Below, in pieces: positions 23,118-61,701 of a stretch of 64,000 bases of DNA. The translations under genes were made by a program, and so were the position numbers. The DNA is from Clitopilus passeckerianus (taxonomy: Eukaryota; Basidiomycota; Agaricomycetes; Agaricales; Entolomataceae), in NCBI GenBank assembly GCA_944990035.1, contig CALYLX010000067.1, positions 329,682 through 393,681 of the forward strand. Reading direction: 5' to 3'. The first letter of the stretch is position 1. Every line of letters begins with the position of its first letter. The notes under the pieces are model-generated. The model had not been told where the DNA came from. It saw only the letters and a program-made list of their open reading frames with translations, and made no database searches.

Positions 23118-23183
23118 CTGCCGAATAAATATTTCATCCAATGCTTGCTATTGATACAACGGGTATACAAGTCGTTCATAATC

Positions 23184-30958: not shown

Positions 30959-31606
30959 TGAGGGCTGCTGGGCGTTGGTGGCGAAGACGCGTGCTGAGTC
31001 GCGTAATTTAAAACTGCCTCACGTGGCCGTTCACACGTGCTCGGTACCGACGCCCCCGCTCCCGACGCTCCCGCCCTATGCGCCTGCCAATCATAGGGAA
31101 GTGCGCCTTTCCTCTTTTGGGATTCACCGACGCGTCATTCAGCAACGATCAAAACCAAAATCAAACCTTCCCATGGCTTGTCAATTCTCAAGAATCTCAA
31201 TCAATGCAAGTCAAGGGACAGATGGCTGTATGCGTTGACCCTTATGAAGCTGTTGGGCATCAGGGCGTCCATTGCCTGCACAAGCAATTCTGGGCAGGCC
31301 GAACGGCCATGTGCACCCCGAAAGGGGCGCCAGAGTCTCCTATTTTGGTGATAGCCTCCTTCTAGTGGAATTCCTCCGTCCTGGGCCTCCCACTCAATGT
31401 GATTCTGTCTTACTCGGCAACTGCACTGTCAATTAATTCCCGGGACAATGGGCAGCCGTGACAGCGGGACCTGAGAGCTAAAGATACTTCATGCTCTTGG
31501 CCCTGTAAGGAACAACGAGGCATCACATTACTTCAAGACTCATGAACGACGCCATGTCTTTCATCTTTCTGATGTCAGCCTAGCTGCTCAGCAACCCTCT
31601 CGCCTC
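30959..31606. promoter_or_regulatory. Divergent promoter region of the helicase and first DUF6533 gene
   Basis: Contains the start-proximal region of both genes. Parts of it, with the helicase 5' end, recur at 33950-34090, as expected from the tandem duplication. Confidence 0.5.
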
Positions 31607-32867
31607 ATGATTGACCACCACTTTGTGCGCAATGCCGTCTGCCGTGAGTGTCTATCAGTTTGGATGTGAACCGGTAGTTCTGATACAAATGGTTTTCACA
31701 GTGGCAGCATTCACTTGCATGGCTTGGGAAAGCATACTTACCTGTTGTCAAGAATACAAGCACGTTTGGCGGTCAGTTGTTCTTCACTCTACAGATATTC
31801 AGGATCGTAACGAGACTTCGCCTATCATCAGAGGTGGTTGCAGTGCGTCTGTCAAGTGGCTTTATCTCTTCTCACGATATACCGGCCTCGCAACTCTTCT
31901 GTAAGTGAGGAAGTTTCTCCAATGGTGATCCACTTTGAGCTCAATTTTCCTTCAGAATCAACTGCATTCTCTTGGCGGGCCCTCTTTCTTACGACGATCT
32001 GGATAAACCGATATGCCGCATCTGGTTCGGCTTCTTGACGATCGCTTTAATGCTGCTCTGGTCAGCAATGGACTCGCTACTAGCGCTGCGAGGTGAGAAT
32101 GGATCTACATCCGCAATGTCACCCAAAGCTCATCTCTCTTAGTGTACGCGCTATATCGACGCGATCCAATCATTGGTGCATTTCTTACTGGCCTAACATC
32201 AATCAACCTTCTCCTCAACATTGGATTCGGGATGATGGCTACCTGGAAGACTAAGTACGATTTTCGATGCGAAGCCGAACGTGCACCCATTGAGATTCTC
32301 TGCTCTGGGTACGCTCCTCCTTTTCTTGCTTATCCTCGTCAAGAACTAACGTTTCTTCAGCTCCATAACCATATTGAGTAACCTGATGCTATGGTCGATG
32401 ACACAATACAAGAATATATGGGCAGCACGAGACGGAGGGGATACGGCTCCACAGATACGGGTAGTGGCTCGAGACGCTGGATGGGTCTTTTTTGGGCTTC
32501 TCGGTGAGTGTATGTTTAGTCCGCTGATCTTGAAACACTTCTAATCTCCCTGGAAGCCGTCGTCGTATCCCTCGCCCCCTATTCAATTCATGTGCACGTT
32601 GCTGGGCATTTCGTTTTTATGTCAGTGATCTCCATTACGAATCCCGGATACTTGGAATCTTACGACATGCAATCCACACAGTTGGCCAATAACATTTATT
32701 TCGATCTTTGTGCGTCATCGAACTCCCGCATCCGGCAGATCATTTGCTCACCTATCCTGCCCTTTCAGACGTGCAGACTTATTCTAAACATGCTGTCCTT
32801 ACACATACCCGATTCAGACACCTTTACGGCACTGTCTACCTATCCCGGACCAATCGATAATTCCTAA
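31607..32867 (+). CDS. DUF6533 domain membrane protein, copy A
   Basis: Seven-helix-like Agaricomycete membrane protein of unknown function. Exon 1 (MIDHHFVRNAVC) splices to LAAFTCMAWESILTCCQEYK, then to VKWLYLFSRYTGLATLL, the DUF6533 pattern of an acidic/aromatic first helix followed by VK-LYLFSRY. Later helices include LLAGPLSYDDLDK, FLTIALMLLWSAMDSLLALR and WVFFGLL. Last exons encode WPITFISIF and TCRLILNMLSLHIPD, ending at 32865-32867. All joins use short GT..AG introns and keep frame. Copy B at 34487 has the same exon structure. Which of several upstream ATGs is used is uncertain. Confidence 0.75.
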
Positions 32868-33239
32868 TTCCGAACTTCATGAGCGTGACCAGCCGTCTGG
32901 ACCAAGATCTGAATACTGGCACAGCGTGTTTTAAGCCGTTCGGGACCTTGCCATGCCGATGGCTTCTGCCCCCCGGAAAGCGTTCTCACCCCTTCCACCG
33001 GATGGTCTTCACCGAGATTTCGATGGTAGTTCGCGAGCTGTCCGAGATCTACACGAGAGGTCCAGTATACCATGCTATTCTTGATGAGATGCACATCCTA
33101 TGGCCGCCTATGAATCTTCATTGACTACAACATTGTCAAGAAACCAGACGGTAGCCCTTCGACCTATCCCTCCGTAGATATCTCCTTCGTTGCGTTGAAC
33201 ACCAAATCTCCAACGTTAGCCAGAACTGTAATGACGGGA
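32868..33239. other. 3' flank of DUF6533 copy A, duplicated downstream of copy B
   Basis: Sequence just after the stop (for example GAGCGTGACCAGCCGTCTGG) recurs after copy B near 35750-35830, so it marks part of the duplicated unit. No gene. Confidence 0.6.
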
Positions 33240-33985: not shown

Positions 33986-34486
33986 TAAGACGCGGCGTTG
34001 ATGACAGTCAAGACGCGTCAGTCAGCAGTTGTTGTTTTGATTCCGCTCGAGGCCCTTAGTGATCAAAACTCCCAGGGCCTGTCAATGCGGCGAGATGGCT
34101 AAGTTGATGTAGCCTCAAGGCCGAGCATACTATCTACACCTGCATTGCCCCGATGATGGGAGAGTTTAAGAGACCGCATCCAGCTGCAGCAGAGAGAGTG
34201 GCAAGAGACTTTGGAAGGCTAAGAGCTATATAAGCCACTCTTTCGTGCCTATTCTCGCTACTGGGCCTTTGAAGTTTCGATGGACTCCCTTCTTGTCCAT
34301 CAGCAACTCGATCGCATAATTAATTCCCAAGGCAAGAGAGCGATGCAGCGCCGCGACATCGGGTCACGAGGATGAAAGTAGTTCCCCACATCTCGACCCT
34401 GCAACGACCATTGAGGCATATAGCCCGGACTCAGGAATGACAGGTTTTTCACCTGGTGTCATGCCTATCAGCCCCGCAACAGTTCC
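33986..34486 (+). promoter_or_regulatory. Upstream region of DUF6533 copy B with TATA-like box
   Basis: GAGCTATATAAGCC lies near 34226-34240, about 250 bases before the chosen ATG. This leaves room for a long 5' UTR or an unrecognised first exon (an in-frame-breaking ATG lies at about 34280). Confidence 0.4.
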
Positions 34487-35732
34487 ATGGCCGAACATCA
34501 TTTCGTGCGTAATTCTGTCTGCTGTGAGTGGTTTGACGGTTCTGGATAGGAATGGATTGTACTTATCTGCACCATTTCGCAGTGGCAGCATTGATTTGTC
34601 TCGCTTGGGAGAGTGTGCTCACCTGCCGGAAGGAGTACAAGCATGTTTGGCGGTGAGCTGTCTTCAGAGTATGCAACCTCTCATTCAAGACTTACAATGT
34701 CCTCAGAGGCGGCTTCACATTGGTTAAGTTGCTCTATCTATTCTCTCGATATGCAGGCCTTACAGTTCAAGTGTAAGTGGCCAGGTCGAACATCGAGCGC
34801 TTGTGTTCTGAAGCGTGCTCCAGAACTAATTGCGTTCTTCTGGCTGGACCTCTCTCGTATGACGTGCTGGATACACGAACATGCCGCAGATGGTTCGGCT
34901 TTCTGACTCTCTCTTCAATACTCCTCTGGGCAGCAATGGACTCAATCCTGGCTCTGCGAGGTGAGTCTGGCCTACATCTTGCCAGGCGACGCTCATTCCC
35001 TTTAGTGTACGCGTTATATCGACGGGATTTGATCGCTGGTCGCTTTCTCCTCGGCTTTTTAACAATAATCTTTGTCCTCAATCTGGCGCTTGGAACGAAG
35101 GCCATTCTCAAGATAGACTACGACTTTCGATGTGAAGCTGACGGTGGACCGATCGAGATCCTCTACTTCACGTATGTTCCTATCTACAACTAGCTCCGCT
35201 TCCAATTGGATTTTGATATTTCCTCAGCTTTATCACCTTGTTAAAGCACTTGATATTATGGTCAATGTCACACAACCGAAAGCTATGGGTAGCACGGAAT
35301 GAAGGGGCAACAGCCCCGCTAATAAAGCTAGTTACTCGAGATGCTGGATGGGTCTTTTTTGGGATTCTTGGTATGCATATCCTCGTATGCTCCGCTTGAA
35401 ACACTCCTAATCTACAGTTAAGCTATGGTCGTAACCGTTGCTCCCTATACATTCCGCGTGCACGTCGCTGGGCATCTCATTTTTGTGTCAGTGAATCTCG
35501 CTTCAACCCTACATATTTAGTGTCTAACGACACCGAACTCCCACAGATGGCCAATAACATTTATGTCCATCTTTGTAAGTTTTGACGGTTCCGCATTTTA
35601 CAGGGGACATACTCACCTATCCCACTCTTTCAGACCTGCCGGCTTATTCTAAACATGCTAGCTCTACGTATACCCGATTCCGATACCTTTACCGAGCTGT
35701 CTACCTATCCTGGACAAACCGATAACTCTTAA
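34487..35732 (+). CDS. DUF6533 domain membrane protein, copy B
   Basis: Paralogue of the gene at 31607, arranged in the same orientation. Spliced exons read MAEHHFVRNSVC, LAALICLAWESVLTCRKEYK, FTLVKLLYLFSRYAGLTVQV, VLLAGPLSYDVLDTRTCRRW, LLWAAMDSILALR, VYALYRRDLIAGRFLLGF, WVFFGIL, WPITFMSI and TCRLILNMLALRIPD, with a stop at 35730-35732. Every exon of copy A has a counterpart and no frame break was found, so both copies may be active. Function unknown; membrane location inferred from the hydrophobic segments. Confidence 0.75.
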
Positions 35733-36407
35733 ATTCCGAACTTCACGAGCGTGACCAGCCGTCTGGACCAAGATCTCAACACCTACGCAGCGTGCTTTAA
35801 ACCGTTCGGAACCTTGCCATGCCGATGGCTTCTACCCCAGGGAGCGCCCTAACGCCTTCCCTGCGAATGCTTCTCACCGAGATCTCTGGAGGAAAGCCAA
35901 GTTGAATGGCGGTTCGAGATCTGGTTCGAGATGTACAGGTCATTCGGATTCACCATGTCGTCCCAGAGGGTTTGAACATCCCGTAATCGTCAACGAACCT
36001 CCGCCAATTGCAGGGTGTCCATCAGCGCTGAAGATGGGGGATGCCTCCATGTGGAGGGTGGTAACGTAGAAGAATCTGCGGGCCTCTCGCATCATGACAT
36101 TAACACAGTTCGACACTCGCTTGCTATACAATTCTGGTTCCCCAACAAGCGCTAACTCGCAAATTTTACGGAAGGCCACCAGCCCTCGCCATCTTCAATA
36201 CTTGCAACCGGACAGGAAGAAGTAGTGAATTACTCGTCGCCTTGATGCTTAAATCTGCCGGCCAATGCATCCGTGATAAACCCTCCGATGAATTAGACTA
36301 AGACTACATGGTATATTATGTCAATGAATGAGAAACCAGCCCGTGATATGAATCTCTCCGCGAATAATGAAAAATATATAATGACTGTGAAGGAAGAGGA
36401 AAGAGCG
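35733..36407. other. Intergenic region after DUF6533 copy B
   Basis: Begins with the duplicated 3' flank. A 79-codon frame at 35940-36179 (-) looks weakly coding-like (MAFRKICELALVGEPELYSK) but has no family or gene context. It may be a remnant. Confidence 0.45.
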
Positions 36408-37640
36408 TTAAACCTCGGTACCAAGCCCAATCGACTCCTTGTGTCCCGGCTTGAACGCCATCATGGAAAGAACCTCGTTCGATCCATCAGGGTCGTTATT
36501 TCTTGTGGCAGAACCATCCGAGTTGTAGTGGCTGCTCCCAAATCGAATCTTCGACAACTCCTGGTCGGATACTGTGTTTGCCGACCATGCTCGTCCACGG
36601 GCTACACGAAGGACAATCAGGATGGGCGCCATGCACTATCCGAAAGGATATGTCAGTCGCTGAGCGGTAGAAGTTCTGGAACTGAAACCTTACCTGAATC
36701 TGGATAAGAAGTGGGATGAATAGATTTGCAGCCGTGTTATGCGATCCATACAAAGAGACGAAGATCAAGGAGACGACGCCATATGGGAGGGCGGACTCGA
36801 GTAGGACTGTTGCAATGTTTGAGTACATCCTGCCGTGATGGGAGCCTATCGCCGTTATAATCTTCTGTCGCATGTAGAGTAGCCGACCGATCAAAAGGCA
36901 GGTTAAAAGAATGTTCAAGCCCATGATTATTGAGAAGTATGGGACGGAGAAGTTGAGAGTTGTGTTTGCCCAGAGGCTTGACTGGGGACGGGAGGCCTGA
37001 ACAGTAGTGAGGCAGCCAAATACTAGAACAGTCGTCAGTAGAGCGAAGAGGTGTAAACGGGATGAAACGTACTCGTTGCGGCTAGCCACGCAAGGATAGG
37101 AACGGGTAAGATCCACCAACGAGCATAGACAACATAAACACGGTAAATCTACACTTGTGGTCAAATTACAATTCGTCTTCTGAGCTAGGAGGCGACTTAC
37201 CAGGAGAGCGTCCGCAAGGAAGCTAATCACGATCGACTCCGCATTTCCCGCAATATTTGTGGCAACAGCTTGTTGTTCAATCAAATAAGCCAGAGGTCCA
37301 CCAGGGTATCCACGATTGTTGACATAGACCTCTTGACTAAACCGCATATTCAATGCAATGTTCACCGATCCCAAGCAGAAGAGAATCAGCACGAAGGCCA
37401 GCCAAGCCATGTTTCTTGAGCCATTCCGTGTTCGGTCGGTCACCAGGTAATACGAGCAAGTGCCGGCGACCGCAATGGTTAGACCTACGCGCAATGTCAA
37501 AAGTTAAACGGCACCGACAAGCTTCTGAGCAAGAGAAGACACTCACCGTAGCCGACAGCACCTAGGTAGACTGCTACGAAGTTCACCTGTTCGAGCCATA
37601 GCAATCCTGGAGGATCTTGAGTTGCGTAGGGGTTGGTCAT
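36408..37640 (-). CDS. Seven-transmembrane protein of an Agaricomycete family
   Basis: The start at 37640 gives a short polar N-terminus (MTNPYATQDPPGLLWLEQ) followed by a first helix FVAVYLGAVGYGLTIAV completed across an intron. Further hydrophobic segments: MAWLAFVLILFCLGSVNIA, ESIVISFLADALLV, LNFSVPYFSIIMGLNILLTC, LLESALPYGVVSLIFVSL and LFIPLLIQIQ, then a soluble polar tail ending GLGTEV. The pattern matches the large uncharacterised mushroom 7TM proteins sometimes called receptor-like. No catalytic motif. At least four short introns. Function unknown. Confidence 0.75.
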
Positions 37641-38317
37641 GGTGAGCGGGGAGAACGACTTCGGCGTCCTAGTTCCGACGACATTGAATATATAAAGTGA
37701 AAAACGATGTCAAGCATCCTGACGACTGGAGCACTTGAAGCATGATAATCAAGGGCAGGAGAAAATGCTGCTCGGTGTTAGGCACTTACCCGGCACCAGT
37801 GGCTGACAAAGGTGATTCAACATCAACTTTGCCAGCCGCAGCCAATGAGGGTAAGCGAAAGAAGGAAACTTGAGTGACATTGGCGTTTTGGTGCTCAACT
37901 TGTCGTGAAAAATTGATCTTTGATGAGTGGGGATTAGGCGCCAGAAAGGGCGGAAAAGACATAGTTCCTCAACATTGTAATGATTTCATTAAAGCTATCC
38001 GTCAGTATTCCACGGTGAGAACTCACAATACTTGGCTTCGTTCGGTATATATCACTATCACCATCGACGGAAGAACAGTTTAAGCAACCAATGAATGCCG
38101 ACCTGAACCATCTCTGTGTTATGACTTGAACTTGGGGCAGAAAACTGTAGTTGGCAAATTATCATTAATTCCACCGCGCCTCCTAGAAATACATCATTCC
38201 GGTTGTTGGCCGGAAACAACCTTTCGACTAGAATACATGCTCAACTACAACCGAATATTGCGAGCCTGAGCCCTATCCCAACCCACAAGCCAGTTTAATC
38301 GGGGTTCAGTGAGCCAA
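37641..38317. other. Intergenic region
   Basis: Promoter side of the seven-helix gene; no supported coding sequence. Confidence 0.55.
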
Positions 38318-38686
38318 CTAGCCATTATGACTGTCCGCAGAGTGTGAATGTGTATGATGATGATCATTGGCATGATGGGTGGGTTCCATGGTGGGCGATT
38401 TCGGCAGGCCGTAAAAGATATCGGGCCTGGGCAGGTGATCGATATTCGTTGTCTTTTGAAGCAAAGATCGAGTTTTGAAAGTGACGACCGTATTTAGGGT
38501 TGCGAAGATGAAGACGAGGGCACAGAGGATGTAGAATAGGGTTACGGTCGTACTTGAGAGCGTCTTGGCTTTTGATTCTGGGATAAAATCCATTTCCGTG
38601 GATTCATCCTCGGCGGAGACCAGCGGCTTCAACTCTGCGTTAGCACCTTGGAAGTCTCCATCGCTTAGAGATGCATAGTTCGACAT
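38318..38686 (-). CDS. Small single-pass membrane protein with LPRPDxxYGLP motif and His-rich tail
   Basis: 122 residues. An acidic cytosolic N-terminus (MSNYASLSDGDFQGANAELK) is followed by one membrane helix (TTVTLFYILCALVFIFATLN, about residues 47-68). Then comes HLPRPDIFYGLP, the motif that follows the anchor in many Agaricomycete But2-type and UstYa-type proteins. Where those relatives continue into a lumenal domain, this one ends in a His-rich tail (HHANDHHHTHSHSADSH). It is therefore either a short family member or a C-terminally lost copy. It heads the accessory block of UstYa-like genes. A metal-binding role for the tail is only a guess. Confidence 0.6.
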   Translation of the reverse strand: MSNYASLSDGDFQGANAELKPLVSAEDESTEMDFIPESKAKTLSSTTVTLFYILCALVFIFATLNTVVTFKTRSLLQKTTNIDHLPRPDIFYGLPKSPTMEPTHHANDHHHTHSHSADSHNG

Positions 38687-39976
38687 TTCTGAGGCAGTAT
38701 GGTGTGAGTACTGAGGTCGTCACTGTCAGTGGTAAGGGCAGGCGACTCACAATTATACTAGCAGATGGAGGTGAGCGTGGAGAAACTGGAGCTCGACCCT
38801 GCTGCCGTCTGTGTCAGTACTCAGGAGCAGTAATCCCATTGCGGAGAGATCCTTACCGAGGGTTCACAGGCTCACACATGGTATGCAGCTCCCTGCAATT
38901 GATGAAAGCTTCGCTGAGTTTGAGGTTACGCGGGGCAACAGTATGATCGATCTCGATTAACGAGAACCAGAGCCTCGGCCTCCGGAAAACCGGTATCTTA
39001 CAGGCCGCCAATGATGGTAACTGGACTCGCAACGTCACGCTAATCCCCAATTCGAAGTCCAAAACGAGCCTGTCAGAGCCCTTATCAATAATAGACAACT
39101 GTCCTGTCGTCTGTCATGAGGGGTAAGTTGCGGAGGAGCATCAAAGCCACCAGAAAGCTCAACAGAATACGGGAGGAGCTAGGATTAGATTGTGATAACA
39201 ACGACAGAGCTCCATGCGATGAGGAAGGCCAAGCTTTGTTCGCAAGCGGCGCATTCCGCAAGTGACTGATAGTGGTCGCAAATACCCACAAAAAGCTCAA
39301 GTTGATCGTGGCCGACTTCTGGATGGCCAACTAGGTCCGGAGTAATCCAATCCCAGTTTTGTCATTTGGTTCTCTCCTCAATTGGCGAAACATTGAGCGG
39401 CAAATGTTACGAATAGAATCGATGAATAGAATACCTAGTGTTGTCAACTACCATGGGCAGAATGTTACGATTGCAAGCAATGGTAGAATGTTCTACGTCG
39501 GAATATGAAGCTTATTTCGCTTCCTGCGGTCCGGCACATGCAATCTCCATATGCTACCATCGCATTTCATGTAGTCAAACTGGGCTTTGCCGCCCACAAA
39601 AGGCATCCGTCTGAGGCCATGTTTCAATCCTCCACGCGATGATTGTACGGCAGAAGTTGCAAACAGAGTCGGATCAGGGAATTGGCCACTCAAGGCGTGC
39701 CTTTTTCTTCGGAGAGTGGTAAGCGCCCAGATCACTAAATATGGTCGGAGTAGATACAATGACGAACCACGGTTCGTATTGACATAACTAGTTCGCCCGA
39801 GACTTAAACCACTCAGCAGCTCCTGAAGTGCGAATCATTTCCATTTATCTTTCTCTGTGGACCTGTCAATCGATCTATTTGCCGCGTGGCGATGTCCACT
39901 CGAACGGATTGAATAAAGCCCACACTTTCTTGGAAACTTTGTTTTCCTCCTGTTCAACAAACGCCCGTGAAAAATC
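38687..39976. other. Intergenic region, 1.3 kb
   Basis: No supported gene. Frames at 39085-39330 (-) and 39493-39759 (-) have no recognisable domain or signal peptide. A TATA-like GAATAAAG at about 39910 could serve the peptide gene at 39977. Confidence 0.5.
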
Positions 39977-40182
39977 ATGCACGCATTCAGGCAGCTAATC
40001 ACCGGGCTCGTTGTTGCGGTCCTTGCAATGAAGGTTGCTCATGCAGCGCCAGGTCAGTTTCCGTTTCGAATTGCCTTCTGGTATGAGCTCAACCCACCGC
40101 GTCACTAGTGGTCGAAACTGTGGATTGCGACGCAGAGGACCTGGAGAGACGTGGAACTGCCAACATTGCACTCTGTCTATGA
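39977..40182 (+). CDS. Putative two-exon secreted peptide with dibasic cleavage site (candidate precursor or truncated small secreted protein)
   Basis: Too short for usual ORF cut-offs. Exon 39977-40052 encodes a convincing signal peptide (MHAFRQLITGLVVAVLAMKV then AHAAP). A 56-base intron (GTCAGT..CACTAG, 40053-40108) joins to an acidic propeptide VVETVDCDAEDLERR and a last segment GTANIALCL, with a TGA at 40180-40182. 49 residues in total. The ERR site before the last nine residues fits Kex2 processing, and five UstYa-like genes lie within 7 kb, so a ribosomal peptide precursor is one reading. Against it, the tail has no Tyr or Phe, the usual UstYa substrates. ANIALC also resembles the first strand of small secreted beta/gamma-crystallin-like proteins, in which case the TGA marks a truncation. 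Coding-like remnants after the stop favour that alternative somewhat. Confidence 0.4.
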
Positions 40183-40624
40183 CCGTTCTATGACCATGGT
40201 ATGTTTCTCAGCTTGGATTGTCCCAGAATGGTACTGAGAACGTATCTCAGGGTCGACCAGTTCTATGGACGTTGAGAGGTGCCGTCCCTAGCACTGTAAG
40301 ATGAAACGTGACAACTCGATCCTGTGCAGCAACTGTGGAGAGCTGGATCTACACGGACAAAATGCTGCATATTATGACCAACATTATTCTTCGAGGGATT
40401 CCTCATTCATAGATGGGGATATTGCTACGGCAGCTGTTCTTTAGAGTCGTTTAACGGAATCGTACAAACATGTATAATTAGCATCATTTCTGGAATCTCC
40501 AGTATATCGCCGTGTGCCTTGCTCAGCAATACCTGGTTCCATACCGTCATGACGAAGGTCCACGTCTAACAGTCGATGTAGCTCAGTACTCACCTCGTTC
40601 TATTCATGACACGATCGTTCGATT
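40183..40624. other. Downstream of the peptide gene: possible decayed exon sequence
   Basis: In frame after the TGA there is PFYDHG and later QFYGR. A plausible intron GTATGT..CTCAG lies at 40200-40251, and a frame near 40335-40440 reads NAAYYDQHYSSRDSSF. These may be remains of the rest of a small secreted protein; no intact gene. Confidence 0.4.
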
Positions 40625-41317
40625 ATGTTGACTATCCCGAAACTACGTTCTGAACGCACATTTCTCCTGGTCGTAACTCTGCTACTCGTCTCACTTGCTA
40701 CGATCGTCTTTCGGGGTCAGATGACGCGACAGAATGTCCTCGCTGACAGAGAAAATTTCAGACTTGGCTCTTCTGAATCACTCGATGATGTTGTGGGTGA
40801 GTACAATCGGCTGGTATTCCGCTGTCGGAGGATTGAACATCGGATTCAAGTCACAAGCCATCCTCTGACCAAGAAATGGCGTATTTCGCCTCTAGAATCT
40901 GTCCACCTGCCTCTGGAGAACACGCACCACTTGGATTTTGTAACACCCCTCGGTGACATGGAATGGAACGCGACTCTCCCCGCGGGCGGAGCCGTCGTCT
41001 ACCTTGGGCCAAATAGGCATGCCTACACTGTAGGGATGTTCCATCGGCTCAGATGTCTAAATATCATCCGCAAGAACCTTGCGGAATTCTACGCGGACGA
41101 TTCTCCCGAAGCCAAGATATCCCAGCCCACGTTGGTTCACCACTGCATGAACTATCTACGCCAAATGGTTCTATGCGATTCCGATGTGACGTTGGAGTCC
41201 ATTCGTTCCGATCGTGGCAATCATTTGACGACATGGGAGGTCACCCACGAATGCAAAGATTGGAGCGTTGTATACGAGGAAGCGGAGAAGAATTGGATGC
41301 TATTCAATGGGGTCTAG
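40625..41317 (+). CDS. UstYa-like protein (DUF3328), variant first motif
   Basis: 230-residue type II membrane protein of the UstYa family, oxidases that modify ribosomal and nonribosomal peptides in the secretory pathway of fungi. An anchor lies at about residues 12-29 (FLLVVTLLLVSLATIVF). The family normally has two motifs, HxxHC and HC-x-x-YLRQ. Here the first reads HRLRC (residues 140-144), so the second His is Arg, while the second motif is intact (HHCMNYLRQ, 172-180). The C-terminal HECKDW (208-213) is also kept. Single-exon as read. A possible 54-base in-frame intron near 40799 lacks a good acceptor. It converges with the next UstYa-like gene. Activity is doubtful because of the motif change. 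Confidence 0.85.
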   Translation: MLTIPKLRSERTFLLVVTLLLVSLATIVFRGQMTRQNVLADRENFRLGSSESLDDVVGEYNRLVFRCRRIEHRIQVTSHPLTKKWRISPLESVHLPLENTHHLDFVTPLGDMEWNATLPAGGAVVYLGPNRHAYTVGMFHRLRCLNIIRKNLAEFYADDSPEAKISQPTLVHHCMNYLRQMVLCDSDVTLESIRSDRGNHLTTWEVTHECKDWSVVYEEAEKNWMLFNGV

Positions 41318-41427
41318 TGAATGTCATGTAGTGTTGGCGCCATATTGCGATTGCATTAAGTGTACTTTTAGTTACTTCTCGACCGATATGGTCATGCTTC
41401 GTATTCAAAGATGACAATCCACGAGGT

Positions 41428-42061
41428 CTATCCTAGTGCATCTGCTTTCTGCGAGTTGTTCTCCCATTGAATTCTGTATCCATTCATCACCTGATAGACC
41501 TTCTCCCAATCCTTACAGACATAACCGGCCGCCGTCCTATCTGTCTCGAAGTTTCTTTCTTCGAAATTTCCCGGCTCCAACGTAAGATCCGCCGAGCAGA
41601 GAGCAGATTGTCTGAGATAGTTTAGGCAGTGTTGAATGTGTCCTGGATTGGCTATACGCGCTTTACCGAATGCAAGGTTCAGCACTCGCAAGCAATGCAT
41701 CTGGTGGAACATCGAGACCATGAAGAGCCTATTTTCCGGCCCGAGCCTGACATAGCCGAAATCAGAACTTGTTAAGGAGAACCATTCGTCATCAGAGCTC
41801 TGGCCGAGTAGGGGATAGTGGACGGTTTCTTCTGCAATCATGAAAACATCTGGCAGCTCTTTGTGCGGGATGGGGAGCGTTGAAGGAAAGTCATGCCCGC
41901 GATATGCTATCATAGTCCAAAATCATGAGACAAAGTATCAGGAATCATTCAAAGAGACACGAACAGTAGGTTCTCTTTTCCCTGAGAGCCCAGACAATGT
42001 ACAGCAAGCTCAGAAAACTGATTCCAAGCAGGACACAGGAGGTGAGGGGACGTTGACCCAT
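41428..42061 (-). CDS. UstYa-like protein (DUF3328), canonical motifs
   Basis: Two exons. Exon 1 (start 42061) encodes a membrane anchor (MGQRPLTSCVLLGISFLSLL). An intron with a GTTCGT donor and GATAG acceptor joins SYRGHDFPSTLPIPHKE. 191 residues. Motif 1 HQMHC at 100-104, motif 2 HCLNYLRQ at 125-132, and a C-terminal CKDW. All histidines and cysteines of the family are present, so this is a good candidate for an active oxidase. It is divergent from the secreted S33 hydrolase across 396 bases, which suggests joint regulation. In characterised fungal pathways such proteins form peptide side-chain crosslinks or hydroxylations; the substrate here is unknown. Confidence 0.87.
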
Positions 42062-42457
42062 GCTCGAACCGATTCGTGCGGGAGAGCAGTGCAACTGGAT
42101 CCTGGTCTGTTCGTTGTTATCGTATCCCTACCTGTATTATTTTTGCAGCTGCATTCGATACAGACGGAACCCCAGGTATACAATATAGTCAAGAGTCGTC
42201 AAGCCCTTGCCGAGATACGGCGCAGACCGAACGTGAAACCTTGAGCTTGAATCCCCAATGCGGAAGTTTTACCCACGGTTCTGTGATGTCTCCGAATGGA
42301 ATGGACTGTCAACGAACTGTCACAAATTCACGGATCGCCGGTGCAATTGAAACTTTCGTCAGCTCATCTCCTCTTCCTCGTGGTTCGGTTCGAGTGGTTG
42401 AAGGGATTCTCCCCGTTAAAAGGTAAAGAAAGAAGATGTGATACTCTAGACGCCGTC
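42062..42457. promoter_or_regulatory. Divergent promoter between UstYa-like gene and secreted S33 hydrolase
   Basis: 396 bases between start codons on opposite strands. An upstream in-frame extension of the hydrolase frame (from 42296) is possible but would bury the signal peptide, so this stretch is taken as promoter and leader. Confidence 0.5.
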
Positions 42458-43468
42458 ATGCTCGCCTTCAGTCGCCTTCAGTTGATCGTCTCTGCGACCG
42501 CGCTCTTGGTAGCAGCTTCGCCATTTAGCTCACACACAGAGTCGACTATCGCAGAAGGGTTTGCTCCCTTCCCCTATCAGGGAGAAACATACAGCACGTA
42601 CTACAAGGTTATTGGGAACCTGAAATCTCCCTCTCCTCCCGTTGTTGTACTACATGGCGGACCAGGTCTATCTCACGACTATTTGGCCCCGTTTGAGGAC
42701 CTGGCAACGAAGTACAACCGTCCAGTTGTCCTCTATGATCAGCTGGGAAACGCGCGTTCTACTCACCTGGATGATAAGCCACAATCATTCTGGACATTCG
42801 ACCTCTTTACCGGCGAACTCCAAAATCTTCTCTCACACCTTTCCATCGAGCGGTCATTCGACCTCGTGGGCCATTCTTGGGGTGGCATTCTCGCTTCGGA
42901 ATTCGAAGTTCGCAAACAACCCACTGGTTTGAAGCACCTCGTGCTTTCGGACGCTCCTTCTTCCGCAGCTCTTCAGTCGGAATCTCACCTTCAACTCCTG
43001 AAGGCGTTCCCGAAAGATGTGCAGGAAGGGTTCATTGGTGGGATGACCAATCCCACGGCATTCTACAATGCGCTGACCGTTTACTACGGAGTGCACGCGA
43101 TGACCCTGAGGCCTGTGCCAACTGAATACAACTTTACGCTGAGCACAGTCTTTGGACCCCATGGTGATGTCACCGTCGCCAGTGCTCCGTGAGTAATGAG
43201 ATGTCGACTACCCAAGTTCTCCCGCTAATCCGAACTCATGTTTAGGATCCTCCAAGATTGGACCATCGTTGATCGCCTCAGCGCAGTTCACGTCCCAACG
43301 CTGGTCATTAACGGCAAAAAAGATATTGTTCAAGACTTCGTCGTGGCGCCATTTGTTGAGAAGATTTCGAAAGCCAAGTGGGTCAAGTTCCAGGAATCAA
43401 GTCATACTCCTTTCTGGGAGGAACGAACCAAATACTTCGAAGTCTTGGACAAGTTCCTATCGGCGTAA
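42458..43468 (+). CDS. Secreted proline-iminopeptidase-like alpha/beta hydrolase (S33)
   Basis: The start at 42458 gives a signal peptide (MLAFSRLQLIVSATALLVAA). The fold then shows oxyanion-hole HGGPGLSHDY, nucleophile elbow GHSWGG with the catalytic Ser, NGKKD with the acid, and SSHTP with the catalytic His. One intron (about 43190-43244) splits SAPILQDW. S33 enzymes of this group remove N-terminal proline or act as amino-acid amidases and related hydrolases. About 319 residues. Its close paralogue at 48931 lacks the secretory signal. Embedded between UstYa-like genes, it could trim a secreted peptide after dibasic cleavage, but that is an inference from position alone. Confidence 0.88.
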
Positions 43469-43945
43469 TGTGAGGAACCGAGGGCGAGGCAATCTAGAGA
43501 TTTATTTACCATACGACAACTGTACAAGCCATCTGATTATTCACCGACTTTCGCACTAAGCATGACGAAATACCCACTGACAAGTCCGAGGCGCAACATC
43601 CTTCCCAATCGAGAGTCAAGAACGCACCCAATTGGGATAAGCTGTCAACAGGAGCAAAAGGAGAAGATCTATGCCAACGGCTCTTTACACTCTGTGGGGA
43701 AGTGATTGAATGCTCCTAAGCGGTGAACGTAGAAGAACGTTCCATCTGAATGTTGAAGTAGTCTATACTCGTCTCCACGGACACACCCGTTTGGCGACTC
43801 ACGCCAAAGATCCGGCGTTTTCGTATAGTTGCTACATGCATTTGTGACCACATGTGTGCGAACCTGAAGACCAATCAGCCCTCCCAATTGAACTGCTATC
43901 AGGGGCAGGGAGATCACACTCACCCTTTCATTGAACACCATCGTC
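43469..43945. other. Intergenic region with doubtful minus-strand ORF
   Basis: A 92-codon frame from an ATG at 43947 to 43669 (-) encodes a hydrophobic stretch and a Cys-containing tail (ESPNGCVRGDEYRLLQHSDG). Its ATG overlaps, within the same CATG, the ATG of the plus-strand UstYa-like gene, so both cannot have ordinary leaders unless transcripts overlap. No family recognised. Confidence 0.4.
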
Positions 43946-44659
43946 ATGTACACTCGTCGAAGCGACAACGTCTATATCCTACCTGCTAGTGTCGTGCATA
44001 CAGGGCTTGCCGTCCTAGTTCTATCACTGGTAGTCAACTTCGCAGAGACTTGGATCCGATTTGAGAGCCTGAGAGCAGGCACGATCCCAAGTAAGCCTCG
44101 CAAATACCCACACAAGACTCTATTGAACAGGAAAATTCCAGCGCAAAACTTTACTTGGGCCGAGAAGACGCCGAACCAACTTCCCATTGATGTGCGGCGA
44201 GTAGCATTGGAGGTGGTCGACTCGGACCGATATGGGATGAATGCGACCAACGACTGGGCATCCATATTTCCTCGCGGTCTCGGCTTCGTGAAAGGAGGAG
44301 ACGATGGAGAGTTCTACGCCCTATCAATGTATCACCAGCTGCATTGTCTGAACAGCTTCCGCAAGATGTTCAATGGCCATCGGGGTGCCTCAAAGGCAGC
44401 GCACGACGAGGTTCATGTGATTCACTGCTTGACATACCTTCGTCAAATGGTTCTCTGCAATGGGGACACGACCCTCGAACCCGCCTTCACTGCTGTCAAT
44501 ACGGATGGAAGGAAGACCAAGGCAGCCTACGGTGCAGGGGTTACTCATCAGTGTAGAGATTGGACTCAAATACGCGAGTTTGTGGAAGGGAACTACGAAA
44601 ATTGGAAGGAAGAGACAAGTGGGTTCGCCACAACAGAAATCAACGCTATCGCTGGGTGA
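43946..44659 (+). CDS. UstYa-like protein (DUF3328), canonical motifs
   Basis: 237 residues from the first ATG (the frame is open further left but only from a TTG). Anchor SVVHTGLAVLVLSLVVNF is near residues 15-32. Motif 1 YHQLHC ends at about residue 134, motif 2 HCLTYLRQ at about 160-167, and HQCRDW follows near 201-206, all matching the family. A basic region rich in Lys and Pro links anchor and domain. It reads as a single exon; a 40-base GTAAGC..AACAG stretch would break frame and was not removed. It is likely an active secretory-pathway oxidase and shares the block with four relatives. Substrate unknown. Confidence 0.85.
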   Translation: MYTRRSDNVYILPASVVHTGLAVLVLSLVVNFAETWIRFESLRAGTIPSKPRKYPHKTLLNRKIPAQNFTWAEKTPNQLPIDVRRVALEVVDSDRYGMNATNDWASIFPRGLGFVKGGDDGEFYALSMYHQLHCLNSFRKMFNGHRGASKAAHDEVHVIHCLTYLRQMVLCNGDTTLEPAFTAVNTDGRKTKAAYGAGVTHQCRDWTQIREFVEGNYENWKEETSGFATTEINAIAG

Positions 44660-44854
44660 CCGTGTCACGCTTCCACTATCTCCTTTACCACCACATTCGA
44701 TAATGCTATAGACTTATCTCATTGTATATTACGATTGCACGAAATTTGATTCATTTATCCTCCTGCTCCGACTCCTTGAAGGCGTACCAGAGCGAAATAT
44801 ATTGCAGGGGAGAAAGCTGTGAAACAGAATGCTCTAAAACTGCCCCAACATCTA

Positions 44855-45471
44855 TTACGACTCCTTCCTGGGCCAGTTCTTGTAGGCTTCTTCTAGATAC
44901 CCCGCCAGTTGGGACCAATCCTTACACTGGTGAGTGACACCGAACCCCGTCACTGCCTTCACGATGTGGCCCTGCTGGCTAATCTGTTTATGGCTGGCGG
45001 GCTCCAGCGTCAAGTCGAGGTTGCACAGCAGTGTCTGCCTCAGATAGCTAAAACAGAAGTCCAGGTGACGCCGTGAGGGCGCATCCTTTTGTCGGAGGGA
45101 GTTTCGGATATTCCTAAGGCACTCAAGCTGGTGATAGTGCGCAATGAAGTAGTACTCGTCCGACGCGGGTGAATGGTAAAAGCCGTCACCGGCGGGGAAT
45201 ATAGAATCCCAGTCGCTGTCGTTTGCGAAAAGCCCAATCGTGAGGATTTTGTAACGTTTAAGGAAGCTTGGCGAATAGGTACTGGGAAGTTTGCTGTAGA
45301 AACCTGAGGTAAGCCTGCTGCGAAAGTCAATACACGTCTAACGTATTCACATACGATGTCGGAGCTCCTATGCGATGCCGTGAGCCACCCCAAGGTATGG
45401 CTACCCACAGAGAATGCAATTGCAACCAGACAGCATACCACTAACGAAAGTGGTACCTCGACGTATCTCAT
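44855..45471 (-). pseudogene. UstYa-like gene (DUF3328) with apparent frameshift and altered motifs
   Basis: Exon 1 encodes an anchor (VPLSLVVCCLVAIAFSVGSH). After an intron (donor GTATGT) the frame reads ANFPVPIRQASLNVTKSSRL. This aligns with QFPSPIQATVLNATNARR of the neighbour at 46012. The homology then continues in another frame as ANDSDWDSIFPAGDGF, so one extra T in the TTTT run near 45231 best explains the sequence. The motifs have also decayed: HQLEC instead of HQLHC, and DFCFSYLRQ where the neighbour has DHCIIYLRQ. The C-terminal HQCKDW is kept. A splice variant with donor GTGAAT would restore an open frame but lose the homologous segment. Most likely a dying duplicate of the adjacent gene; a non-catalytic paralogue is the alternative. 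Confidence 0.65.
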
Positions 45472-46011
45472 GGTACAAGTAAACCCGGCATCTCCAATTC
45501 ATCAGGACCCTCGTAGGCTGAGGATTCAATATTCCCACTTCGGTCTCGACGAATGGGGAAGAAATAGGCATGGTTCTCGCCTTTTTTAGTTATAACCCCA
45601 TGAAGGACTGACCACCTTATGCAGCCTCAGCCACGCGATGAGGTGCCATGGGTGGTTGGAGGATGTTGAACCCAGAGCAGAAAGATCGTCATCAGAGGCG
45701 CTGATTAGCTCCGTGCATCCCCTTTTCGAGAGAGATTGAGTCGAACTGAACCAGGTTGGCCGCACCCTGAATGTCGAGTTGTAACCTCACTGATAAGCTT
45801 CGTAGTTCATTTGTAGAATAGATGTCCCCTCTTTTAAGCGGCTAACCCTTACTCCTCCAGATGTTCACTTTGACACGAGCCATTTTCGCTTCAATCATGA
45901 CCAGAGGGAATTGCTACCCATGATGACCTGCGCAATTGCATGATAGGGGTGTAGAACCATGACCCGACATTCATCAATCTATGGACAACAGGAAGCACAC
46001 AGGAAAGCTAG
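45472..46011. other. Intergenic region between two UstYa-like genes
   Basis: 540 bases; no gene or short secreted peptide frame recognised on either strand. Confidence 0.55.
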
Positions 46012-46632
46012 CTAGTATGTATCCTTCCACTCGTCGTAATTATGCCCCATGTAGTCCCAAAGCTGCGCCCAGTCTCTGCACTGGTGCTCGACTCCAATAC
46101 CCGTCACCACGCGCGTACCATTAGCGACGTATTCCGGCGGTTCCATCGTCAGATCCAGGTTACACATTAGCATCTGCCGCAAATATATTATACAGTGGTC
46201 GACGTGACCGTAGTCCGACTTGGTGAGGTTCGGTAAGAGCAGAGTGTACTCGCGCAGGGACCGCAGGCAGTGCAGTTGATGGTAGTGCGAGACGAGGAAG
46301 TGGGCTTCATGTTGTGGATGGTAAATGAAGCCGTCGCCCGGAGGAAGCAGTGAATCCCAGTCTGAGTCGTTTGAGTGCACCCAGAAGCGTCGGGCGTTGG
46401 TGGCATTGAGTACAGTAGCCTGGATCGGGCTGGGGAATTGGGGATGGGTGAGGTTCACATGTTTCCCTGCGGCCGGTACGACGTGAGATCATGAGTCCAC
46501 CAGACATCGACCCTTCAGCTCACCTGTCGCCCTGAGAAGAATGGTCGTATCAAGCACATGCAAAGCTGCCGTCCAAGCCAGCGCAGCTGCAGTAAGAATA
46601 GCCAGAGGAAGCGGGATGGAAACGTTCGTCAT
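46012..46632 (-). CDS. UstYa-like protein (DUF3328), canonical motifs
   Basis: Two exons joined by GTGAGC..CCGCAG. The start at 46632 gives an anchor (IPLPLAILTAAALAWTAALH). 187 residues. SNDSDWDSLLPPGDGF leads into YHQLHC (98-103), then HCIIYLRQ (127-134) and HQCRDW (164-169). All motif residues are present. It is the closest relative in the window of the decayed copy at 44855, and the two are tandem on the same strand. Probably active in the ER/Golgi lumen on a peptide substrate, by analogy with UstYa. Confidence 0.87.
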
Positions 46633-47123
46633 GATCGTGGTACTTAGTCCAACTCCATCTTTGAAGGTGTTGCAGCGCCGATGTGGGCGTCAAGAAGCAA
46701 GAGAAGACCGTCGGCTGAGAGTCAAGGGTCTACGTCCGAGTTGATGGTAAGGATCCAGTTGACTCGGATCTCCAGACCCTTGCAGTAATTCTGGACGGAG
46801 ATACTGTCGAGCTGCTGACCCTGGGTTCAGAATTGGTGAACTCGGGGCCCAGTGAGAAAAGGATAGGGAAAATGTAATTATTTTGACTTTTTGCACATGC
46901 GCGAGGATTCCACCACTCCAAACCAGCCGACGACGGTGGCGTATCAAGGAGGAGGCGTTCAAAGGGTTCATTCATTGCTTGGATTAGCCATTATCTGATA
47001 GTATCTCGTCATAGATAACAAGGGAACTTGAATATGATGCACGTTCGTATTGGGGACTCGGAACTTGAGGATAGGGGCGAACGCTCTGATTCTTGTTCAA
47101 TGGTGCAACTAAAGGATATATTA
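46633..47123. other. Intergenic region
   Basis: Promoter side of the UstYa-like gene and 3' flank of the But2-type gene; no supported gene. Confidence 0.55.
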
Positions 47124-48151
47124 TTATTGTGGATCTTGGAATTTCGTATGCGTGCTATGTTGCGTAAGAAATATTCCTGGACAGAATTCAAATAAATTCG
47201 TGAAACACATTGATATTCCCAAGTGGAGAGACGAACCAGATCGGTGCTTTTTCATTTTATTTTGCCAAAGATCGACCAAGCAGGCTGTGGTGCCCGTAGG
47301 ACAGCAGAGTTCTAGGGTAGTGAACTCGTTTGTGGGGCATTCAAAGTGGGTGCTATTCGTGGGTGAGTCTCCAAGGAGTAGCGATCCTAGTTGTCTATTG
47401 CGTTTCGGGGCAGAGCGCCAACTTTCGGGGAACCAGGGAGAAATTTCTGACGAAGGCTCAAGCACCCAGATGTCAACCGTTGGTGGAGATGATGCTCCAG
47501 CAGTGCCAGAAGGAGGAACATACTGCAGTACGCAGTCTTCCATGGCAAAATCGAGGTGCCGGAAGTGAAGGATTGTTGAAACCTGGAAACAGTTATCAGC
47601 AACAGGCGTCAGAGATAAGTTAAGGACTCTGAATCGCTAACCTCCGAAGAAACGAGAATATGACGATCAAAGGGATATACAGCACCTATCGAGGTGATTC
47701 TGCCCTTTTCATCTTCTCTGATCCGTCTTGAAGTATCTGAAGTGTCAATCTGAAGGACAATTTCGGGAAAGTTGACCACGGGAGGAAATGTAGCATCGGG
47801 CGCCTTCTTTAGGACTTTCTCTAGGTTAGGGTATGGATTCGGTCTTCGCAGAGGAATCTGAGGCGGAGGTGCCCCATATGTGTCACGATTGACGAAAACG
47901 TAGAAAGCCAATACGCTTGTAAGCACAGTGCTTACGCTGGCAAGCACGAACAAGATGTCCTGAAATGACCTGCTGCGACCTCTAGCTTGTAAGATATGGT
48001 TGCATTGAGCCAGTAAATCAAACATACCAGGCGTCACTTTAGGTCGTCCATTTGATGGTGGATACATGAATTCTTGGCCGTGGTCATCTGAATCTAGCAC
48101 CAGTGGCTGCCTTTCCTCCTCCAGAACATCAGTATTAGCTGCAGGACACAT
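47124..48151 (-). CDS. But2-type (ubiquitin 3 binding protein But2 C-terminal domain) single-pass membrane protein
   Basis: N-terminal acidic cytosolic part (residues about 1-57), one membrane helix (DILFVLASVSTVLTSVLAFY), then PLRRPNPYPNLEKVLK. This is the anchor-proximal motif also seen in the short protein at 38318. A spliced exon 2 gives VSTILHFRHLDFAMEDCVLQ, the start of the But2-like beta domain of Agaricomycetes, and continues with WLxxP-type segments and three clustered cysteines (ELCCPTGTTACLVDLW). The end of the protein is longer than I would expect, so a late intron may be missed. Function unknown; family members are often co-located with UstYa-like genes. Assignment rests on overall pattern, not on a catalytic motif. 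Confidence 0.65.
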
Positions 48152-48930
48152 TGTCAGACAGCATCCAGAAAGTACAATTCGCAGTTATTTTGGAGACCTG
48201 ATCGTTCTGGTCAAACAGCTGCAGGGTCCCGACCCAGAGTGCGATGTCCTCACGTGTACCGGCCCGCTTCGCTCTCAACTATGACCACACCTTCTTGGAT
48301 CTTGCCCGGTTCTGGCTTCTTTGGCCGTCGTCGTCATAAACCCTGATATATGATAGACTCTGAGGGAGAATCCTTACTGCCTGAGCCTCCGTGATTGACG
48401 CCCCAGACTCCGAGTAACGCTGCTGTACGGTCCAGTGCAGGGCATAGTGATGCCCATTCGCCCACTGTATCAGAAGGTTTCTTCTGATGAAACACAATTC
48501 GCCCATAGTTGCGCGTGGTCCTTCCCAGAAAGACGTAGCGCCTGTTCCACATCTCCCTGGTCCCGGGCTCGGGCAAAAGATAGGAATGCTTTGATCCATC
48601 AAGAAGCTCAGGCAATTGGACGAAAGCATGACCGTCTAGGATAGCCGGGGACGATCAGTCCAACATTGAACCAATTGAGAGAATGTGTAAGCTAATATGA
48701 CATGAGGATCTTGATATATATTGGTCTTTCCAATGAACACGACCCTTGTCAACGTTGACGAGATCCATTTCGGTAAGCTCTTTTCAACTTCAGCTGGACT
48801 AGTCCTGACGTATCGAGTTAGGCTGTCATCATCACCAGGTATGCTGCTGGCTCTCCGCCGAGCTGTCATTTCGGGGCTCAAGTTTACATCTCCTACTTTC
48901 CGCAGGTCTAGCCATACCCCATCCTCAACA
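48152..48930. promoter_or_regulatory. Divergent region between But2-type gene and S33 hydrolase
   Basis: Contains a TATA-like GATATATATTGG at about 48712-48723, some 210 bases before the 48931 ATG, and a possible leader intron (GTAAGC..GTTAG, about 48773-48822). In-frame ATGs at 48733 and 48841 precede the usual family start. Frames on the minus strand (48279-48629, 48636-48953) have no family. Confidence 0.45.
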
Positions 48931-49861
48931 ATGTCTTTCACAGACGGCCTCATCGACTTTACCTACAAAGGTGAAACCTTTCAGACTTACTACAAGCTCT
49001 TCGGCGACCTCAAAGCCAAGAAACGTACACCTCTGGTCGCACTTCACGGTGGTCCCGGCCTCGTACACAACTACCTCACCCCATTTGAGGACCTAGCCAC
49101 CAAATACGACATCCCCACTATCATCTACGACCAAATCGGCAATGGCAAGTCCACCCACCTCAAAGAAAAGGCACCCGAATTCTGGACTGTCGACCTGTTC
49201 GTCGACGAACTGGTCAACCTCCTCAACCATTTCGGAATCCAGGACGACTTTGATCTGGCAGGCCACTCCTGGGGAGGAATCCTCGCTTCGGAGTTCACTG
49301 TTCGTCGGCAGCCTGAGGGATTGAAGCACCTCATCTTGATGGATTCACTAGCTGCGTCCAGCTTGTGGAATAAGTCCCAGTTTGAACTGGTGATGACTTT
49401 CCCTCCGAGTGTGCAGCAGGGGTTAGCGGGAGGGATGAAGGAGCCGGAGAAGTTCTTCGCTGCGCTTAAGGAGTTCCATGCTGTTCATGGGTGCACTGTT
49501 AAGCCACAGCCGGAGTGGTTTGCCTATACGATGGAACAGGTGTTTGGGAAGGATGGGGACCCGACTGTTGCGTCTGCTCCGTAAGTGGAAGTAATAGATG
49601 TTTATGAGCATCCGCTGATTCACGACCGTTTGCAGAATCCTCAAAGACTGGACAATTGTTGAGAGGCTGGACCAGGTGAAGGTTCCGACCTTTGTGATTA
49701 ACGGACGAAAGGATATTGCCCAGGATTATGTCGTCCGACCCTTCTTCGACCGCATTCGGAAGGTGAAGTGGGTCACTTTCGAGAACTCGAGCCATACACC
49801 ACATATAGAAGAGCGGGAGAGGTGCTTTGAGCTCATCTCAGAGTTCTGCCAACCCCAGTGA
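48931..49861 (+). CDS. Proline-iminopeptidase-like alpha/beta hydrolase (S33), non-secreted paralogue
   Basis: Paralogue of the gene at 42458. It shows HGGPGLVHNY, GHSWGG (nucleophile Ser), NGRKDIAQD (acid) and SSHTP (His). One intron after TVASAP (about 49583-49635) lies at the same position as in the paralogue. From 48931 it starts MSFTDGLIDFTYKGETFQTY, the usual cytosolic family start. An upstream in-frame ATG at 48841 would add 30 residues rich in Arg and Ser (MLLALRRAVISGLKF..), resembling a mitochondrial presequence. It sits at the edge of the UstYa-like block, so it may or may not belong to it. Confidence 0.88.
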
Positions 49862-49997
49862 ACTGCCAAACCTGTAGTCTCTTGACCTTTAGTTTGTATG
49901 AAATGTATCAATATTCTTCTTCTTCATGGATCTTCCTTCGATGATCATGCAAGTGGATAAATGAGATTGAGAAAGTAGTGCAACAACATGTCCAATT

Positions 49998-50847
49998 CTA
50001 GCTCTTCTGCTTCCCTTGCCCTTCCTCTCTTTTCACCCGTCTTCGTTTCACGTCCCAATTATACACTCTCGCCGTATTGACTTCCATCACAGTCAGCTGC
50101 TCTCTCAGAAACTCGAGATCTTCCACCGTGTTCTCAAGCGTCGTCTGCGCTGCGTCAAGTTTTGACCGTAATAGCGCTATCGCCTCCGGGATCTTGTATG
50201 ACAACATTACGTTTGCCTACAGATTATTCTGAGGAAAGTCAATTGTAGTAGGAGGTAGAAACGTACGCCAAGCCATAAGTACACCGTATCTGTATCTTCC
50301 AGCTCTGCCTCTGCAAATAGAGTATCGTTGAGCTCATATGTCGTTTTGAGAGGTTTCGAGGAGGCTTCATCATCTCCTAGGTCATCGTCTAGATCGTCTG
50401 CATCATCGGATGCTTTGCTTTTGCCTTCCTAGAGAGCAGTCAGTGCAGGTCCACAGCCAATCACAAATATGTATTCACTCTTCTGGACTGCAAGAATTCT
50501 ACCATATCCAGTGTCTTCTTGATATCTGGGATCTTCTCTTCCAGACTTGATCTCCGCTGGTTCAAGTTGCTGTCCATATACCGGTACTTGCTGCCCTTTC
50601 AAGCTTTCTTTTAGCGCAGCTTAGCACATAAAAATATGTCCAGACGTACGCTATAGCATCCTGAAATGCGCGAAGAGGTGCTTCTACCTCTCCATCTGGG
50701 CCACCAAGATATTCCTCGACATCAGCCTACCGATGCAATTTCTGTCAGTCAAGCCCCTCAGTCTTTAGCTTCAAGACTCACAATAAAAGGTGCCTTCGGT
50801 ATCCCTCTCGGATTTTTCTCGTCAGAAAACACGGTTTTTGGCGGCAT
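49998..50847 (-). CDS. PAC10: Prefoldin subunit 3 (Pac10/VBP1 type)
   Basis: Alpha-type prefoldin subunit, a hexameric chaperone part that passes nascent actin and tubulin to the CCT chaperonin. The N-terminus reads NPRGIPKAPFIADVEEYLGG, the family signature, across the first intron. Then comes a coiled-coil helix (YRYMDSNLNQRRSSLEEKIP), an acidic linker, TVYLWLGANVMLSYKIPEA (the beta-hairpin region), and a second helix ending NTARVYNWDVKRRR. Five exons, about 210 residues, normal for the family. Start 50847 is divergent from the Mrd1 gene. Confidence 0.92.
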
Positions 50848-51054
50848 TTTGGCGGTTTGAAGCCGCGATAGTCAATGGCAAAAGCAGTCGCTTGAGGCGG
50901 TCCGGAGATAACCGGCGGAGTTCCAAATGAATTCTTGATTTCCTCATAAACTTTGGATTATTTTCTTGCACCGGCTCTCCTCAGGTTCGTATCCCCTGCA
51001 TTGCTCGTTGTCGGCGTAGCAGCTAACAAAATTTCTTCAAAGATATAGGCAGCA

Positions 51055-61671: not shown

Positions 61672-61701
61672 GGTGGTTGAGTTAAGGATTGTACCACCCA
61701 C

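Follow-up and report, generated by a model that had tools for sequence, protein, structure and literature searches.

We describe here a block of genes in a 64,000-nucleotide stretch of the genome of the basidiomycete Clitopilus passeckerianus (hereafter the window; contig CALYLX010000067.1, positions 329,682 to 393,681), whose contig, C67, belongs to a scanned assembly of 64.8 Mb and 160 contigs. The block carries five UstYa-family (DUF3328) genes, two hydrolase genes, a small gene for a secreted precursor peptide, two further membrane protein genes and a gene for a receptor-like protein with seven transmembrane (7TM) helices. The original prediction, made from the letters of the DNA, had set the block at 38318-49861; the members that it named are real, but its left border was incomplete, the unit beginning with the 7TM gene (36408..37640, minus strand; exons 37640-37547, 37484-37201, 37148-37073, 37022-36694 and 36635-36408; 336 amino acids in the translated exon join). 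To the right of this gene lies a single-exon gene for a short protein (38318..38686, minus strand; 122 amino acids) with one transmembrane segment and a His-rich C-terminal tail, eight His standing among its last 19 residues. It is followed by the precursor gene (39977..40182, plus strand; exons 39977-40052 and 40109-40182), which is the predicted signal-peptide gene with a dibasic site and lies 443 bases before UstYa1.

The five predicted UstYa frames (about 40625-46632) all pass the Pfam model PF11807 at its cut-off of 25 bits. They are UstYa1 (40625..41317, plus strand, single exon, 73.5 bits), which has an N-terminal transmembrane segment; UstYa2 (41428..42061, minus strand, 59.9 bits); UstYa3 (43946..44659, plus strand, single exon, 89.1 bits), with relatives in many Agaricomycetes; UstYa4 (44855..45471, minus strand, 59.8 bits); and UstYa5 (46012..46632, minus strand, 72.5 bits). 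UstYa2, 4 and 5 have two exons each, the first of which was judged by eye and in UstYa2 holds the transmembrane segment. Paired HxxHC motifs are described as forming the UstYa copper site, and CctR as a copper-dependent dimeric enzyme (PMC12435403). The full HxxHC(x)nHxxHC motif is canonical in UstYa2, 3 and 5 and degenerate in both halves in UstYa1 (HRLRC / LVHHC) and UstYa4 (HQLEC / HLDFC). Both predicted peptidase-like hydrolases exceed the cut-off of 167.65 bits of NCBIfam TIGR01250, the proline-iminopeptidase family. One (42458..43468, plus strand, two exons, 172.6 bits) has a signal-peptide-like start, runs divergently from UstYa2 as had been predicted, and finds proline iminopeptidases as its closest sequence matches in the PDB; the other (48931..49861, plus strand, two exons, 167.9 bits) has an ortholog at L014:8884-9826, 61% identical over the first exon. 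The remaining membrane protein (47124..48151, minus strand; two exons, approximate join; paralog at L014:7235-8060) had been labelled But2-type, a label that found no support: neither this frame nor the short membrane frame matches a Pfam family at E <= 0.1, but both are open reading frames with counterparts in the paralogous cluster. Copies of the block are found on C69 (99.96% identity over 10 kb containing most of it) and on C66 (about 92-93% identical), which we have taken for the other haplotype. Window positions 29846-49897 are near-identical to C69:1-20000 in two pieces (98.9% and 99.96%), and this shared stretch probably represents overlapping contig ends of one haplotype.

A paralogous cluster lies on C139, with its allele on C59, and holds in the same order and orientation a 7TM gene, a short membrane gene, a precursor, UstYa1, UstYa2, UstYa3, a But2-type gene and a hydrolase; the C59 allele shows the left part only, as that contig ends after UstYa2. 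Between the clusters, UstYa1, UstYa2 and UstYa3 are about 61%, 66% and 70% identical, compared with about 24-42% for different UstYa types within a cluster, and in a tree of 62 proteins they pair one-to-one (100/99, 100/98 and 97/88, respectively). From this pairing we conclude that the block is duplicated as a unit. UstYa1 of C139 is also degenerate in its copper motif, and a motif loss common to both clusters suggests a kept partner role. UstYa4 and UstYa5 were not found on C139, where a single hydrolase was found; in the tree they group (100/100) with proteins from Somion, Flammula and Heliocybe, UstYa5 falling in a group with P0039-P0041. The tree omitted 13 database rows, two C59 alleles and one misread frame (C116_b), its bootstrap was not settled, and its long branches leave the placement of UstYa1 and UstYa4 unsure. 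A test of the tree groups gave three changes per cluster, not better than shuffled labels, which is expected if the UstYa types predate the cluster duplication. UstYa4 and one of the hydrolases seem to be local duplicates, and the possibility raised with the original prediction, that UstYa genes had merely expanded here by local duplication, is contradicted for types 1, 2, 3 and 5.

The precursor of the window is 49 residues long; its signal peptide is followed by a brief segment that contains one Cys, then by RR and the nine-residue core GTANIALCL. On C139 there are two homologs of 49-53 residues, ending KR-STTSHLALCD and RR-SSTSHLALCN. The three genes agree in a 76-nt first exon and have introns of 49-62 nt; each product has a signal peptide, a Cys ahead of KR or RR, and a single core ending ALC-x. 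One C139 precursor has an ambiguous acceptor (intron of 53 or 62 nt), and 53 nt was used for the comparison of alleles. Tyr, Phe and Trp are absent from the three cores, and His is present in two. In global alignment the window peptide scores 92 and 62 against its two paralogs, and none of 20000 shuffles reached either value; when the signal peptide is left out, the scores are 47 (no shuffle as high) and 34 (3 of 20000 as high). Because the paralogous cluster repeats this structure and the ending of the core, the small gene is, on the comparison of sequences, more than a chance frame. Pooled, the three pairs of precursor alleles differ by 12 silent and 12 replacement changes (ratio of nonsynonymous to synonymous polymorphism, pN/pS, 0.37; P = 0.013), and the window precursor differs from its C66 allele by four silent changes and one replacement, none of them after RR. 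A scan of the C139 and C59 stretches for secreted peptides of 40-75 residues, encoded in two exons and common to both alleles, returned only the two precursors.

The 7TM gene, the His-rich membrane gene and the precursor form a triplet that occurs once in the window cluster and twice in tandem on C139, the His-rich tail being found in all three copies of the short protein. There is thus one 7TM gene per precursor, tandem-duplicated triplets included, and among the matches listed, 7TM copies of at least 48% identity lie only at the window cluster (with its C69 and C66 copies) and twice at C139/C59. These patterns place the 7TM gene within the cluster unit. In the protein database we found 64 relatives for all UstYa types together and 55 for the 7TM protein, the named species among the latter being, to judge from their genus names, presumably all Agaricomycetes. 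Sixteen named species have a relative at least 50% identical to UstYa3, and 12 of these also have a listed 7TM protein (Sparassis and Termitomyces were left out of the 12, as their matches come from different species or strains). In 10 of the 12 (Flammula, Sphaerobolus, T. cingulata, Panaeolus, T. sanguinea, Gelatoporia, Wolfiporia, Heliocybe, Cubamyces and Laetiporus), the 7TM and UstYa3 orthologs are on contigs of equal length, three of these shared contigs being 228-259 kb long; in T. sanguinea the two locus tags are 002855 and 002861. For Taiwanofungus, also among the 12, the two matches come from different assemblies.

When two branches of the 7TM family were modelled, the yeast alpha-factor receptor Ste2 took the top three VIA rows for both, and we infer that the protein could be Ste2-like, in fold only. 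Searched by sequence against solved structures, the family gave no match. There is no STE3 match at the 7TM genes either, and the precursors end in ALC-x, not in a CaaX box.

Taken together, these data are best accounted for by a block that makes and senses a small modified peptide: a Kex2-cut, UstYa-oxidised signal with its own receptor, resembling a G protein-coupled receptor (GPCR). We give this reading, built on sequence comparison and protein models, a probability of roughly 0.57. Signal peptidase and Kex2 would release, in the Golgi, a core of 9-10 residues ending ALC-x. As the cyclisations of ustiloxin, phomopsin and asperipin are described as requiring Tyr (PMC7329392), with victorin linked through Phe (PMC9233826), any modification of these Tyr-free cores would be of another kind than in the first three, and the invariant Cys becomes the residue most likely to be modified. 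UstYa2, 3 and 5, with their intact motifs, could oxidise or cross-link the core, most likely at this Cys, with UstYa1 and UstYa4 perhaps acting as their partners; the His-rich membrane protein may hold copper for these enzymes in the Golgi lumen, and the hydrolases would trim the peptide ends. The product would then be secreted and detected by the 7TM protein, acting as a GPCR with the helix arrangement of class D (Ste2-like) receptors. The original prediction had proposed a Kex2-cut peptide modified by UstYa enzymes, an idea strengthened by the duplicated, order-conserved cluster with its homologous precursors. Its likeness to the dikaritins holds less well, given a single core without Tyr, and the conserved 7TM protein adjoining the peptide suggests a signal, either instead of a defence metabolite or in addition to one.

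A number of observations weigh against this reading. On the side of the receptor, the Ste2 ranking comes from two models of the family itself; Foldseek alone gave nothing at E <= 0.001 and placed class A receptors first and Ste2 14th; and for the second model TAS2R14, at 16.6, is level with the two lower-placed Ste2 rows (17.2). The genome gave no match to the Pfam STE2 model (PF02116) above its cut-off, the highest score being 13.7 bits (C127), STE2 is absent from the families matched by 45 members of the 7TM family, and among the answers listed the family has no Pfam match over cut-off. The motif LPLSSMWA, described for helix 7 of class D1 (Ste2) receptors (PMC8942848), is absent from the family, which has the consensus FIPLLxQV in helix 7 of the model. 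The linkage of 7TM and UstYa3 genes is indirect, contigs of equal length being a sign of it and not a map. Relatives of the 7TM protein at 23-35% identity lie on 13 further contigs of the genome, nine of them without a UstYa match; Gelatoporia, Wolfiporia and Laetiporus have additional 7TM proteins (40-45%) on other contigs, and in Amylostereum the 7TM (32%) and UstYa matches are on two different short contigs. On the side of the peptide, no change of either kind follows the dibasic site in the three allele pairs, so that the core itself gives no test of selection. The two-exon scan of window positions 34901-51000 against C66 returned, besides the precursor, a second candidate at 35425, which lies to the left of the unit, inside a tandem duplicate, and is without a dibasic site. 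Genome searches with one precursor per cluster matched the query's own cluster and its copies, never the other cluster, and are therefore too insensitive to exclude further members. With six precursor sequences as queries, the protein database gave 58 candidates, but not one of them reached E <= 10; genes that are small and have two exons frequently go unannotated. Finally, the collections viral_contigs and genome_contigs, scanned with the UstYa3 alignment, gave no UstYa3 relative.

The main competitor, which we consider rather unlikely, is a defence or toxin peptide of the dikaritin type, that is, a ribosomally synthesised and post-translationally modified peptide (RiPP), the 7TM protein then serving for self-protection or transport, or sensing something else. 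Known UstYa RiPPs are described as bioactive metabolites (PMC9233826), and a 2022 eLife study of mushrooms lists 16 Pleurotus UstYa-like genes as probable dikaritin genes, six of them developmentally expressed (PMC8893723). Yet one 7TM gene per precursor, even after tandem duplication, and a Ste2-type fold would suit a receptor better than an exporter, and single-copy cores without Tyr are not what a dikaritin would lead one to expect. Toxins tend to diverge faster, whereas here the core ending is kept while the other genes common to both clusters (the precursor aside) have drifted to about 32-70% identity.

It could also be that a plain secreted signal is sensed by the 7TM protein, the UstYa genes being neighbours that modify another substrate. 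The C139 triplet was duplicated without UstYa genes, which makes it a unit of its own, and yeast alpha-factor is described as linear (PMC7329392). Both clusters, however, keep the triplet together with UstYa1, 2 and 3, and the equal-length contigs of the 10 species again associate UstYa3 with the 7TM gene; we hold this alternative to be quite improbable. Less probable still is that the genes are unrelated neighbours brought together by chance and local duplication: UstYa4 and one hydrolase do resemble local copies, but the order-conserved paralogous block and the indirect linkage across species are hard to obtain in this way.

A UstYa-oxidised signal with its own receptor would share features with several known systems. 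As in the dikaritin pathways of ascomycetes (ustiloxin, phomopsin, asperipin), a secreted precursor with a Kex2-type site lies by UstYa and peptidase-like genes; unlike them, the precursor has one core and not repeats, no Tyr in this core and a short propeptide with an invariant Cys, and the unit includes the 7TM and His-rich membrane genes; the scan of the block frames turned up neither a P450 nor a methyltransferase, as had been predicted. With alpha-factor and Ste2, a class D1 GPCR system of ascomycetes, it has in common a secreted, dibasic-cut peptide and a receptor-like 7TM protein whose models are closest to Ste2; the differences are that the precursor and 7TM genes adjoin and are co-duplicated, that tailoring oxidases are present, and that the 7TM protein lacks both a STE2 model match and the helix 7 motif; Ste2-like receptors have been reported as exclusive to Ascomycota (PMC12842992). 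The STE3 and lipopeptide pheromone modules of basidiomycetes also have a peptide precursor close to a 7TM gene, and the co-duplication of precursor and 7TM gene as one cassette recalls pheromone loci; in contrast to STE3 modules, the precursor starts with a signal peptide and lacks a CaaX end, and Pfam does not identify the 7TM protein as STE3. The Kex2-processed repeat proteins (KEPs) of Basidiomycota are likewise secreted and Kex2-cut, and 103 of 1680 are reported near DUF3328 genes (PMC7329392). Repeats are what defines a KEP, so that a precursor of 49-53 amino acids with a single core would be overlooked.

Our results suggest that the cluster encodes a type of peptide signalling so far undescribed in mushrooms. 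In open-licence literature on UstYa/DUF3328 in basidiomycetes or mushrooms and on Kex2 peptides or GPCRs, no description of such a cassette appears in the titles and abstract openings; the closest are the 16 Pleurotus UstYa-like genes (PMC8893723) and a 2019 speculation that KEPs might have unknown cognate GPCRs (PMC6339444). Most fungal GPCRs are described as orphans (PMC13308352). The locus brings together a concrete candidate ligand gene, a receptor-like gene and tailoring enzymes and has relatives in different orders of mushrooms, and naming the three together turns the question of a cognate GPCR into a reporter assay. If UstYa enzymes act on a core without Tyr, their known RiPP chemistry widens. 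Possible, though we would not wager on it, is the broader idea that mushroom-forming fungi have, beside STE3, a second and non-lipid peptide-hormone system, in which a UstYa-oxidised, Kex2-cut peptide and a cognate class D GPCR are encoded as a ligand-receptor cassette. In that case a UstYa product would be made for sensing by its own producer, with chemistry on an aliphatic, Cys-containing core, and a Ste2-type receptor lineage would exist in Basidiomycota unseen by sequence models.

In the assembly as a whole, PF11807 matched at 68 places, exons and both haplotypes counted apart. A third UstYa locus (C114:184-190 kb / C8:156-162 kb; L015, L016) has a UstYa pair, a But2-type gene and a distant 7TM relative of about 32% identity. 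A scan that demanded a KR/RR core found 7 precursor candidates in 30 kb of C114 and 11 in 30 kb of C8, with none in common. At further UstYa loci the same rule yielded one candidate in 10 kb of C4 and five in 30 kb of C116, the sole shared one being, by its position, the transmembrane exon of a UstYa gene. With the KR rule dropped, 10 kb each of C114, C8, C4 and C116 gave 0, 0, 1 and 1 candidates, none shared. In these scans the C114/C8 locus thus showed no precursor of this type. Many more UstYa-like frames lie on C142, C93 and other contigs, several with internal stop codons (introns or decayed copies), which suggests another expanded UstYa group of this genome.

Past the window end, some 15 kb beyond the cluster on its right side, are genes for pheromone receptors of the STE3 type (C69:35225-39502 and 61664-62585, equivalent to about 65.1-69.4 kb and 91.6 kb in window coordinates), with alleles on C66. 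We have for now rejected the idea of a mating-type B locus there: a 4.8-kb stretch is 92% identical between haplotypes, so that it is probably not a diverged mating-type allele. Directly to the left of the cluster, positions 31537-33021 and 34391-35886 form a tandem duplicate (about 69% DNA identity) with membrane-like frames, two of which were scanned with Pfam and gave nothing over cut-off. Further left, at 20565-24020, a frame of the AA9 family (lytic polysaccharide monooxygenases, LPMO) adjoins a DUF6535 protein.

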